Part shown: positions 14,769 to 20,700 of the stretch, in pieces | How positions within the stretch are numbered: the stretch's first letter is position 1 | How the letters are laid out: each line of letters starts with the position of its first letter | The notes under the pieces: generated by a model | What the model was told of the DNA's origin: nothing | Seen by the model: the letters and a program-made list of their open reading frames with translations, nothing else | Database searches by the model: none | Program-made: the position numbers and the translations under genes | Assembly (NCBI GenBank): GCA_949775045.1 | Contig: OX459100.1 | Span: 7,043,462 to 7,107,461, forward strand | Direction: 5' to 3' | Source of the DNA: Metridium senile | Taxonomy: Eukaryota > Cnidaria > Anthozoa > Actiniaria > Metridiidae | Length of the DNA: 64,000 nucleotides

Positions 14769-17700
14769 TCATTTTACAAAAGGATCACTGCTGTATCTAA
14801 ATATAGGTTTTCTTCGTCTTTTTATAGGGTTACTACTTTCAGAGTCATTTGAACCATTGTCGCTGATACTAGGGTTTAGCGATGATGATGTTGAACCATC
14901 GCTACTTATTGACATCTTGTCATTAGTCGATATGGAGCTGTCACTCTTTATAACTCGAAGATTACAGTGTGTTGCGATTTCCCGTAATGAATTTGGAGTT
15001 TTGATTTCCAGCGTTACAGTATCTGTTTTGTTTCTAATGATTTCAACAACATCCGAATGTTGGTCCCATTTGACATCAACTCTGTCAACACCAATAATTA
15101 TGTCACCAACTTGTAATCCAGCATCCTGCGGCATGAAAAATCAACAATTAGGATTATGATGATGATATTGATGATGATTTTGAAGATGATGATGACGGTG
15201 AAATAATAACATAGTAACATTGTTGATGATAATGATGAAGATGATGGTAAATGATCTTGATCCTGGTGATAATATCATGATGATGATGTACACCGGTATG
15301 ATGATTGTGATGACAATGATAAAGGTTATGATGATGATGATGATAGAGAAAATGATAATGAAGATGAGGATAATGATTATGATAACAATTATTATGATTA
15401 TGATAGCTATAATAATGTTTCAGATTATGACAAAGATGACAAAGATGATGTTGATAAAAATGGTGGTGATGGCATCAGCAAATTAATGCTACTCTGGCCA
15501 CAATTAAACAACATGCCCTCCAGAAGTGATGTTATTGTCCTACTTTTTCTACCTACCCAGGCTGCACCATGTTCTTCGGCACACTGTACAATCACAGGAG
15601 CAGAGCTGACCACACTGAAACCATAACTGCTATTTTTCCTTGCGAAACTAATGGTTCTTGATCTACTTAGATTGGAATCAGCATTGAATACATGCACTGG
15701 ACCCTATGACAATGAAAAAAACCCGAGCATGTATTACCTTGCCAATGAGGAATTTTGTAAATCTTTTTCAGTGACTGTGTATGATGATGATTGTCAGGGT
15801 ATAGTAAGAAATGTAAAGAAAATATTTTCAGGACTTCAATGGGATTTTGTTGTTAGAAGAAAACAATTGTCCTCTTGTACTATTATTTCTGTTTTGATCC
15901 TCCCCTAGAGTGCTTACACTATGTCCATGAAATAAAATCTAAATAGTTACTAACTAATAGTTTTTATTTAGTGACTATTAGTCACTATCACTCAACTGGA
16001 ACAGCTTTAGTAACAATACACAATGAATAAAGTATTAACTTTCTATGGTTTTGAGTATTTGATTTCCCTTGTGGTCTATTGTTACTAAAGCTGTTCCAGT
16101 TGAGTGATAGTGACTAATAGTCACTAAATAAAAACTATTAGTTAGTAACTATTTAGATTCTATTTCATAGACATAGTGTAAGCACTCTATTACTCTATAA
16201 GAAGATTTGTATTGAGACAGAGTTCATTGTAATATATACAATATTAGCAGTCGATCTGTATACAACATCGAAGATGAGCCGTTGTATATTGCATACAGAT
16301 TGGGCGTGAATATTGTATGGTACTTATGAAAGTCCAACATTAGTTCTTTCACATTTTACTAAAATTGTCAAAATAAAAGTAAATTTGCCTGAGAAAATTG
16401 GGTTGAAACTTCAAATCAAATCAGGATGAAATCTCTGTGATTTACAGAATTTGTCACGGAGGTGATTTCTTTTGTAAAATTATAATTATTTATTCATGAA
16501 TTTTAAAAGTGTAATTACAGTCAAAGCACTCGAACCATGAACACTTTGGTCTTTTTTTTATCTTTTTTCGGCCTTTTTCATGCATAATTAACGGCGACAT
16601 CCAATCAGCGTCGACGATCTAAAAATAACAAATACATTTTTCGAGACTTTTTTCAGCATTATTCAAAACATCGTAGAGTAAATTGTAGCGCAGCAATAAA
16701 AAAGTTATTCATTTACTGGCAACTGATTTCTATGTAATTAGCTTCGATTTCCGCAGCTATTGATCAGTGTGACACGAAAATTAAGATTTGTATATTCACG
16801 CTGGCGGTAAATTTCGCAACGGTTCATTGTAGGCAATGGCTTACGCTGCAGCAAACGTTCAAGGTATAAATCAAACATGCATTTTATATTTGACATTTAT
16901 TTTCGTTTATTTTTACAATTTCTGTGTACATTGTGTAAACTTACTGTTTTTTGACATTAGGCAATTGTAATCTCACTATAAACCTTCGAGGCGGTTTATA
17001 TGACAACGGAAGAGAGCTTCCACAAATATATCGAGAGAGAATTCTTGACTTACATCATCAAGGTACATCACAAAGAGCAATAGCTGACGAATTGCGAGTT
17101 AGTCCAGCATATGTAAACAAAATTGTACAATATTACGATCAACATAATACATCACTTCCCGCAGTGAAGAAATGTCCATCTAGAGCTAAAGTAACGTCTG
17201 AGGTTTCAGAGTACATAGAAAACGAAAAGTTATGCCAACCCACGATATACACAGCCGAATTAAAGAATCGCTTGCTTCTCGATGGTGTATCTTTGCCTAC
17301 AAATGTGCCTTCTGAATCTTCAATTCGAAAATCTGTACGAGAGGACTGTATGATGACAAAAAAGAAAATCACTCAGGTGCCGACAGAATCATTGTCACAA
17401 GCAGTTGTCGATTATACAAACAATTTTCTTGATCAAGTCTCACAGATAAACTATACAAAAATTCATTTCTTCGATGAATCCAGTGTAATTGTAACATCAG
17501 GAAACCGCACGTACGGCCATTCTTACAAAGATGAATGTGCAGTCGAGTTCCAACGCTATGCTTCGAATGCTAATTACACTGTGAATTTACTTCACTCTGT
17601 CCATGGAGTAGACTATCACGATATACTGAAAGGTCCTTCAAATGGAATGGAAATGTTGAACTTTTTTGACGATGCTCTCTCCGTTTACAGACCCGATGGT

Positions 17701-20700
17701 TCAGCCATCATTGAACATGGTGATACTATTGTTATGGACAATTGTAAATTTCATCACGGACAATTTGCAGAGCCCTTGTTGAGAGGTATTTTGCAAGACA
17801 GCGGTATTCAACTACTGTTCCAGCCTGCCTACTCCCCTCATTTAAACCCATGTGAATATTGTTTTCATCAGGTAAAATCCTACTTAAGGCGAAATACCAC
17901 TCTAACTAGCAAAGAAACTGAAATAGCAATTCGTGAAGGTATTTCTACGATAACTGCAGCAAACTCGATTGAATATTTCAGACATTGCGGATATGTTGAT
18001 TGACAGGTCTAGCGCGTGTAAAATTCGCGCCAAAAGTTAAAAGAATTATACTAGCGTCACAGTCTCGCAACATGGCGTGTGAAAGAGAAACTGAGGTTTT
18101 CTCATGGCTAAAATCCATATCTCCGAACATGAAACTTGAACGACTTTCCCCTCATTTCGAAACAAGAGGTTTTAGATCACGAAGGTCATTGGCGTATGTA
18201 AAAGTAGATGATCTCGACGTATTTTTTGACTCGCCTAACAAGTTATTACTAGCGGAACGACGAGTTTTAGAAGCCGAATTGAACAAAATCAAAGCACAAG
18301 AAAATAAGCACCAGCAGCCTGAACGTCCAGAATCTGCGAGAAAACTACACTATGATAGTACTTGTAATGCTCAAGCTTTGCCGTCTGCCCATTCAAGTTC
18401 GTCATCTAGCCATGAAGCTGGAGGTACAATGAGCGCTCTAGATCGAAGAGCTATGGAGCACAAAGAAAGTTTGGAGTTGCTAAGTGCACAAGTTGAAAGT
18501 GTAAAACAACATCTAGAAGGAAAGAGAAAGGCAGTAGAGAGATATTCTACTGCATCTGTTGGTCGACGAGGTAAAGTCTGTACTTTGTGCCATAAATCTG
18601 GACATAATAAAGCGAGATGTAAAGGATTTCCGTGCCCTGATATAACTGTATGTCAACTACAAGATAAACACCCCGAAACACAAACCGAAATCCGTGAGAT
18701 TCAAAAAGAGTTGAAAGAGCTAGAGAGCAAGTACACAAAGGCAAAGAACGATAACGACGTTTTCAGTGCTTCACGACTGCGTGCAAAATCTAATTTCTTT
18801 GCAATTATGAGACCGCGACTAAAGCAACAAAACCAAGCCAAGTATGTAGATCGTAGTGCACTAGATCGAGACCTGCAGATATTGCAAAGAGCACTCACCA
18901 ACAAAATACCCATAGACACAGCTAATGACTGGCGACTGCCTACGATGATTGAAGAATATAAGAGAGGCGTAGATGCATACCGTCCGCTGAACAATCATGA
19001 TCAAGCTTTTGGACCCAGTTATACATCAAGCAGTTCGACAAGCAATACTTATTACCACATGTAACTTATGTAAACACCAGTGTTGAAATTGGAAAACAAA
19101 ATATATATAGTTGTGTTGAAATATGCACGGTATTTTGAAGTTTATTGTAGTTTTTTGTATCTAGCAAATTGTGAAGGGCGCAATGCTCTTTGTGAGGTAT
19201 CTTGAATGATGTATCTCTCTCGTTGTGTTTAATTGGCTACATTTGTTGGATGCAAAAAAAAGTTTAAGCAATGTACGTACACAGAAGTTGTAAAAAATGA
19301 ACGTCAATAAATATGAATTATAAAATGCAAGTTTGATTTATATGTTGAATGTTTGCCGCAGCGTAAGCCATTGCCGACAATGAACCGTTGCGAATTTTAC
19401 CGCCAGCATGAATATACAAATCTTAATTTTCGTGTCACACTGATTCAAATTGCTAAAACTCGTCAAATAGCTGCGGAAATCGAAGAGAATTAAATAGAAA
19501 TCAGTTACCAGTAAATGAATAACTTTTTTATTGCTGCGCTACAATTTACTCTACTATGTTTTGAATAATGCTGAAAAAAGTCTCGAAAAATGTATTTGTT
19601 ATTTTTAGATCGTCGACGCTGATTGGATCGCCGTTAATTATGCATGAAAAAGGCCGAAAAAAGATTAAAAAAAGACCAAAGTGTTCATGGTTCGAGTGCT
19701 TTGACTGTAAAAGATCTAACATCTTACCAGTCTGTGGAACAAATCTTCAACTGCTGTGTCACTGAAATCTGGAGGAGTTGGTTGAGCCTTTTGTTGTGCA
19801 TAAGCTACAACAAATACAACATAAAAGAGAGTTTGAAAGAGCTCATTATTTTAAAATTTATACAATGCTGAAACACACCAATACAGCGCCTTTCATAATC
19901 ACACAACAACTGACATTCAAATGCAAACAGTATAAAAAAGATTGTACACTACTGTCAATCAAAAATAATCAATCAACCATTGATATTTTGGTTTTACAAG
20001 TTGTTGTCTCATCTTCAATGGCAGTGTAATTATGAAAGGCACTGCTAATATTCATACAGAAAGAAATAAAATTTTGATAATCAACTATGTCAAGATCATG
20101 CTTGCAGCGACATCAGATAGAGATAGTTGGAGAGACAGGGATGTGGGAGTCTGAGCAGATGATGCCAACATAAGACAACAACAAAAGATTGACAAAATAT
20201 TGAGTACCTTTGACAGGGGTGGGTGACATTGGGTCATCAAAGTCATCCTCTTCTTCCATCGATATTAACTGCTTCATTGATTGGTTCCGAGACTCTGCTA
20301 AAACCTGATAGAAGTTAACAACATTTAGCTATTTTACAAGTGACCTACAAGTATCTCAATATGGAAGTACTGGAACAAATAACAGTAAAATTACCAGTTA
20401 TAACAAGTTATCCTTTTAACATTTATTTAACAATCAAAATATTCAAATAACCCAACTAAAAAAACAACAACAAATGAACAAACAAACAAGCTAGCAAACA
20501 AGCAAACAAACAAGCAAACAAACAAGCAAACAAACAAGCAAACAAACAAGCAAACAAACAAGCAAACAAACAAGCAAACAAACAAGCAAACAAGCAAGCA
20601 AACAAACAAGCAAACAAACAAGCAAATAAACAAGCAAACAAATGAACAAACAAACAAACAAGCTATCAAACAAACAAACAAGCAAACAAACAAGCAAACA

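Follow-up and report, generated by a model that had tools for sequence, protein, structure and literature searches.

Transposases of the Tc1/Sleeping Beauty type are encoded by a single open reading frame (ORF) and are of the DD34E class, and Tc1/mariner elements in general usually contain one transposase ORF. That the paired domain of Pax proteins originated in a transposase was proposed earlier (Ivics 1996; Breitling and Gerber 2000, both as cited in PMC4901127), and the view that Pax was derived from a Tc1/mariner element is repeated in PMC8290160. Burglin and Affolter (2015; PMC4901127) placed transposases of acorn worm and oyster, which contain a PAIRED-like region, as the outgroup to bilaterian Pax. 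Here we describe a transposon of 3,190 bp found in a 64,000-nucleotide stretch of the genome of Metridium senile (assembly GCA_949775045.1, contig OX459100.1, positions 7,043,462 to 7,107,461), referred to below as the window, in which the transposase begins with a full-length match to the Pax paired domain and is followed by a second gene, here called ORF2. We interpret it, with a probability of about three in four, as a two-gene Tc1/mariner-type (DD38E) transposon whose complete paired domain is likely to bind the ends of the element and to have a common ancestry with that of Pax, rather than to be a copy from a Pax gene of the present-day host.

Paired domain and catalytic core of the transposase

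The transposase gene and the parts of its product are located as follows, with residues of exon 2 counted from position 16963.

16836 to 18003, forward strand: transposase gene, first exon predicted (sequence, Pfam)
16836 to 16863, forward strand: predicted exon 1 (MAYAAANVQ-G), with its ATG at 16836, inside the left terminal repeat (sequence)
16864 to 16960, forward strand: predicted phase-1 GT-AG intron, 97 bp (sequence)
16961 to 18003, forward strand: exon 2, with paired domain, DDE_3 catalytic core and stop codon (Pfam, AlphaFold)
16972 to 17004, forward strand: predicted beta-hairpin of the paired domain, residues 4–14 (AlphaFold)
16978 to 17340, forward strand: paired domain, exon-2 residues 6–126, Pfam PAX 5–125 of 125
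17023 to 17145, forward strand: predicted first helix-turn-helix unit, PAI part, residues 21–61 (AlphaFold)
17197 to 17346, forward strand: predicted second helix-turn-helix unit, RED part, residues 79–128 (AlphaFold)
17473 to 17475, forward strand: catalytic D171, D in 63 of 63 aligned rows
17737 to 17739, forward strand: catalytic D259, D in 63 of 63 aligned rows
17854 to 17856, forward strand: catalytic E298, E in 61 of 63 aligned rows

When the whole protein was searched against Pfam, PAX was matched over profile positions 5–125 of 125 with 67.2 bits (E 1.6e-18; cut-off 22) and DDE_3 with 59.7 bits, whereas the generic helix-turn-helix profiles HTH_23 and HTH_SB reached 26 bits (cut-off 24.6) and 24.4 bits (cut-off 43), respectively; the same search gave no homeobox match. 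A phmmer search of the PDB with the first 138 residues returned Pax8 (E 4.6e-18) together with Pax5, Pax6 and prd, and then the PAI unit of Sleeping Beauty (E 4.8e-5), the alignment to which begins past the hairpin strands, at query residue 16. No gaps occur against PAX8, PAX5 and prd, and against PAX6 two single-residue gaps in the linker offset each other. The AlphaFold model places a hairpin, with predicted strands at residues 4–6 and 12–14, ahead of two helix-turn-helix units (helices 21–32, 37–44 and 48–61, then 79–91, 97–106 and 118–128) and the catalytic core. By profile and model, the window domain has the constituents of a Pax paired domain, namely an N-terminal hairpin, a PAI unit and a RED unit over about 125 residues. 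The initial annotation, made from the sequence alone, had read the N-terminus of the transposase as an entire Pax paired domain that includes the hairpin, and both the full-length match and the modelled strands agree with this reading; the region did not score as a generic helix-turn-helix domain alone.

A generic pair of Tc1 helix-turn-helix units might nevertheless score as PAX merely by way of the shared fold, as the HTH_23 score just over its cut-off and the weak HTH_SB score could suggest. This was rejected as highly improbable in view of the 67–104 bits obtained over the full PAX profile including the hairpin columns, the hairpin strands of the AlphaFold model, and two Tc1-like control loci from the same genome (L035 and L041), which matched DDE_3 and HTH_Tnp_Tc3_2 and had no PAX match at E values up to 0.1, so that the PAX match is not general among Tc1-like enzymes. 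The window protein has 215 homologues; among the best 120 of them, 92 carry PAX according to a precomputed column and 28, covering 56–92% of the query, do not. PAX and DDE_3 were both matched in all 66 members of our alignment A1, 65 of which had been chosen from rows already listed with PAX. Most of the named near homologues are coral proteins with 50–66% identity, which, like the linked PaxD-like loci of the genome, points to an anthozoan host, and the database sources named for a few transposase members are Oculina, Porites, Dendronephthya and Mytilus.

The paired domain continues into a Tc1/mariner-fold DDE/D core with an intact triad, as the initial annotation also held: DDE_3 is matched, and D259 and E298 are separated by 38 residues, a spacing that, counted by alignment columns, recurs in 62 of 63 rows. 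The open frame containing the transposase extends from 16951 to 18003. Because exon 2 has no in-frame ATG upstream of the paired domain, a first exon and an intron were predicted; a similar MAYA exon is seen, as judged by eye, in the related locus L024. In-frame ATGs are present within exon 2 of L016 and L024, so the intron is not needed in these two. The recognition helix of the window domain is unlike that of Pax, and such a helix would fit another target, likely the terminal repeats.

Ancestry of the paired domain

In addition to the window element, which is locus L009, further transposase loci were fetched from the genome, giving 20 in all. The sample used for trees contained 63 transposases, made up of 9 of these 20 loci plus 54 database proteins no shorter than 320 amino acids (one per 72% cluster), and the paired-domain tree, which is unrooted, combined them with 9 Pax sequences over 122 columns. 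All Pax sequences lie on one side of a branch in this tree (support 100/100) and adjoin the group of L019 with weak support (91/76). The transposases fall into group I (14 rows, including L019; 89/71), group III (31 rows, including the window; 100/99) and group II (18 rows), the last on an unsupported fork (42/0), and the tree of the catalytic core recovers groups I, II and III at 98/94, 98/89 and 100/98, respectively. Distances in the paired domain and in the core are correlated (Mantel r 0.763, with none of 2000 permutations as high), and therefore domain and core have largely travelled together and the paired domain joined the core before the family radiated.

The hairpin itself is unevenly kept. 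Rows in which its columns are occupied and which have both the key glycine and one of Y, F, H or I at position 12 number 12 of 14 in group I, 8 of 18 in group II and 29 of 31 in group III; many group II members have lost the hairpin or never had it. The turn residues N14, G15 and R16, which would contact DNA, occur unchanged in the window domain; of the 31 group III rows, 21, 29 and 23, respectively, retain them, and group I has mostly P, G and K at these positions.

Had the domain recently been captured from a Pax gene of the present host, possible donors would have been at hand, as the genome carries at least seven Pax-like loci (L001–L006 and L008), presumably of PaxA- to PaxD-like classes with linked PaxD-like loci among them. 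The window domain is, however, only 28–36% identical to five host Pax domains, which is no higher than its identity to PAX5, 6 or 8 (31–39% to PAX8, PAX5, PAX6 and prd), and recent capture is for this reason unlikely. In addition, joining Pax to the window domain alone is rejected by the approximately unbiased (AU) test (p 0.0006), and the domain follows the catalytic phylogeny across the 63 transposases. These results led us to reject recent capture from the host, which we consider barely credible.

The initial annotation had favoured shared ancestry over capture from a host Pax gene, and against recent capture the same results bear this preference out. Its further suggestion, that a transposon of this kind would be a close relative of the ancestor, is not supported for the window element in particular; L019 of the same genome scores higher against PAX. 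L019 (G000:C10:11814202-11814564) has the strongest PAX match among the scanned transposases of the genome, at 103.5 bits, with an ATG directly before the domain; to compare with Pax, it is a closer candidate than the window element.

An older capture, in which the common ancestor of the transposases acquired the paired domain from a Pax gene before the groups split, is unlikely but carries appreciably more weight. The unrooted tree lets the transposases attach at several points within Pax without significant loss (p 0.28–0.48; the best tree itself has 41/40), and the Pax rows are short-branched, with a long stem (0.88) between them and the transposases. When Pax is moved away from group I, the cost is 1.4 log units for group II (AU p 0.43), 5.3 for group III (p 0.30) and 11.8 for L019 alone (p 0.143), the last likewise not rejected. 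Rooting by Tc1-like outgroups from the same genome gave no root, their branch being too long and group I being split up. Ancestral capture is nevertheless not needed to account for the domain, as other Tc1-like transposases have a helix-turn-helix before the core, both in the HTH_Tnp_Tc3_2 match of the controls and in the PAI unit of Sleeping Beauty. A weak further point is that the transposase profile, the more diverse of the two, gives the Sleeping Beauty PAI unit 54 bits and the Pax profile gives it 26; median scores of single sequences against this unit are 18.8, 15.3 and 16.2 for groups I, II and III and 14.4 for Pax. A search of the genome with HTH_SB gave no match over the cut-off, and the 8 rows above 34 bits all lie at places on the PAX list. 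Because other Tc1-like enzymes already possess a helix-turn-helix before the core, we infer that descent of Pax from a transposon is more likely than the reverse. Such elements and the developmental Pax genes likely share an ancestor.

Acceptor-like splice sites beside the paired box were picked by eye among several AGs. Phase-1 sites are found at paired-domain position 1 in the Pax-like loci L001, L002, L004 and L006 and at position 2 in L008, and at −1 or 0 in the transposases L009, L016, L020 and L024. The Pax-like locus L003 has no phase-1 site of this kind within 45 bases of the paired box, and L005 has phase-1 sites at −8 and −4 with an ATG following; in the transposases L022 and L028 the acceptors are phase-0 or poor only, and L019 has poor phase-1 acceptors and an ATG next to the domain. 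It is conceivable, though doubtful, that Pax arose by insertion of such a two-gene element into a homeobox gene of an early animal, the exon for the paired domain being joined to that gene through the splice acceptor of the transposon; the phase-1 acceptor beside the paired box would then be a relic of the event. The positions would suit such an exon capture, yet two events at a domain border can coincide by chance, and the introns are predicted ones. A shared intron is not claimed as proof of ancestry; L003, L005, L019, L022 and L028 are without a comparable site adjoining the domain.

The transposon, its copies and ORF2

The boundaries of the element and the features outside the transposase gene are as follows.

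16518 to 19707, no strand assigned: whole transposon, 3,190 bp, CAGT...ACTG, with TA adjoining its ends at 16516–16517 and 19708–19709
16518 to 16929, forward strand: left inverted terminal repeat (412 bp), agreeing with the right repeat at about 90%
18072 to 19064, forward strand: ORF2, 330 amino acids, between transposase and right repeat, with an N-terminal region aligned to weakly SAM-matching relatives, a zinc-knuckle-like CxxCHxxGHxxxxC and a KHPE motif
18579 to 18620, forward strand: zinc-knuckle-like motif CTLCHKSGHNKARC of ORF2, Pfam zinc-finger matches all under cut-off
19277 to 19707, reverse strand: right inverted terminal repeat (431 bp)

Eight of the 20 fetched loci belong to the window family, namely L009, L010 to L015 and L021. 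Both ends are present in L010 to L015, which are 98.0–100% identical to the window element over the aligned pieces (L014 100%); L012 and L015 have inner deletions, and L021 is without the left repeat. Comparison of the 1.5-kb flanks of the seven two-ended copies gave three matches, one within the flanks of a single copy and two between L011 and L013, and flanks so nearly unmatched fit transposition and not block duplication. In all 15 copies used to count ends, which represent six families (L009 to L016, L018, L020, L022 to L025 and L028), TTA precedes and TAA follows the element, the boundary having been set at CAG by analogy and TTA lying within the inverted repeat. L017, L019, L021, L026 and L027 were left out of this count as having an end lost or unclear. 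No inner repeat of the transposon terminus stood out clearly against 200 shuffles in the first 430 bases of the six families, the best match being attained by 14 (window), 158, 26, 40, 199 and 6 (L028) of the shuffles. The Pax core site TTCACGC occurs once in the first 430 bases of the window element and is absent from those of the five other families. The hairpin, PAI and RED units would dock on the terminal repeats, and the DDE core would excise the element and reinsert it at a TA, which here always lies within TTA...TAA.

Window ORF2, which the initial annotation did not mention, has no Pfam match over cut-off. It was detected by tblastn in 18 of the 20 transposase loci. Across families the matched parts are 29–56% identical, and the gene runs in the direction of the transposase in 13 loci and against it in 5; no tblastn match was obtained for L019 and L026. 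Near L026, an ORF on the opposite strand resembles ORF2 by eye. The CxxCHxxGHxxxxC, KHPE and MRPRL residues are invariant across six aligned members. The N-terminus is more varied: PB1 is matched over its cut-off (23.6) in the relatives L016 and L020 (24.1 and 25.2), SAM_1 below its cut-off (23) in L022 (16.8) and L028 (16.6), and neither is listed by Pfam for the window or for L024. The PB1-type ORF2 of L016 and L020 lies on the strand opposite the transposase and the weakly SAM-like type of L022 and L028 on the same strand, as if N-terminal domain and gene orientation had changed together. PB1 and SAM domains often oligomerise, and ORF2 would serve as an accessory protein, forming oligomers on either the DNA or the transposase.

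A profile search for ORF2, which scored only the 7,996 candidates with most shared words, gave 91 relatives, 15 of them with PB1. Eleven of the 91 match one of 179 transposases by identical size of the longest contig, compared with 0–5 in 20 shifted controls, and 10 of these 11 contigs are long enough for both genes, which provides indirect evidence that ORF2 and transposase are linked in other genomes too. ORF2 could instead be an unrelated passenger or a fragment of host sequence, the transposon working with one gene as other Tc1/mariner elements do, and the two loci lacking a match and the occurrence on either strand would agree with this. We regard it as improbable given the identity between families, the invariant residues in six members and the excess of size-matched contigs over the shifted controls.

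Outside the transposon, the window contains an inverted repeat at 15906–16189 with 116-nt arms, 97% complementary and separated by 52 nt, which is likely a small hairpin-type element. Elsewhere in the genome, Tc1-like transposase ORFs, mostly of 373–384 amino acids, recur at a spacing of about 4–5 kb in many arrays (among them G000:C14:1362280-1395947, C7:12621123-12682140, C2:7801585-7846446 and C5:12346200-12402002), whose elements look as if they had been turned into a long-unit tandem repeat.

Comparison with known systems

PIF/Harbinger elements are likewise DNA transposons with two genes, a transposase and a second gene between inverted repeats, but they belong to another superfamily and their second gene is Myb-like and not of the ORF2 kind. 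The window transposase shares with Tc1/Sleeping Beauty the fold of the DDE core and the PAI unit, the match to which, unlike the match to Pax, excludes the hairpin strands; the single ORF typical of Tc1/mariner is not seen, a conserved second ORF being present in 18 of 20 loci. Pax genes encode regulators that often have a homeodomain beside the paired domain and have no nuclease core. Like them, the window gene has a paired domain including the hairpin, aligned gap-free to PAX5, PAX8 and prd; unlike Pax genes, it has a DDE_3 core after that domain, no homeobox match and another recognition helix. The second, unnamed protein is an addition to a superfamily that usually encodes one.

Intruder, which is also DD38E, has the same 38 residues between D and E, a spacing that alone does not show kinship, and as described in PMC7731502 it is 1.5–1.7 kb long, with a single ORF and terminal repeats of up to 272 bp, unlike the window element with 3,190 bp, two ORFs and repeats of 412 and 431 bp. 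Searches of an open-licence library, mostly at the level of listings, gave no paper on a Tc1/mariner element that has two genes and combines PAX with PB1 or SAM-like parts, which is no proof that there is none.

There is also a practical warning. The transcription-factor table of the Hydra viridissima genome paper gives 61 and 57 PAX-domain genes for two Hydra species, far more than the Pax genes in its homeobox table, where Pax4/6 genes number one or two and Pax3/7 genes are absent (PMC7642931); most of the 61 and 57 are likely such transposons. Whole paired domains including the hairpin in transposases, some of which have near-identical copies, make both DNA binding and the direction of evolution testable. 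The transposases of Burglin and Affolter have, like ours, a region resembling the paired domain; their tree was based on about 100 residues, covering the last part of PAI and the complete RED unit, and section 33 of their paper mentions neither a transposase hairpin nor a second gene (PMC4901127). Transposases with a Pax-like region are thus already in print.
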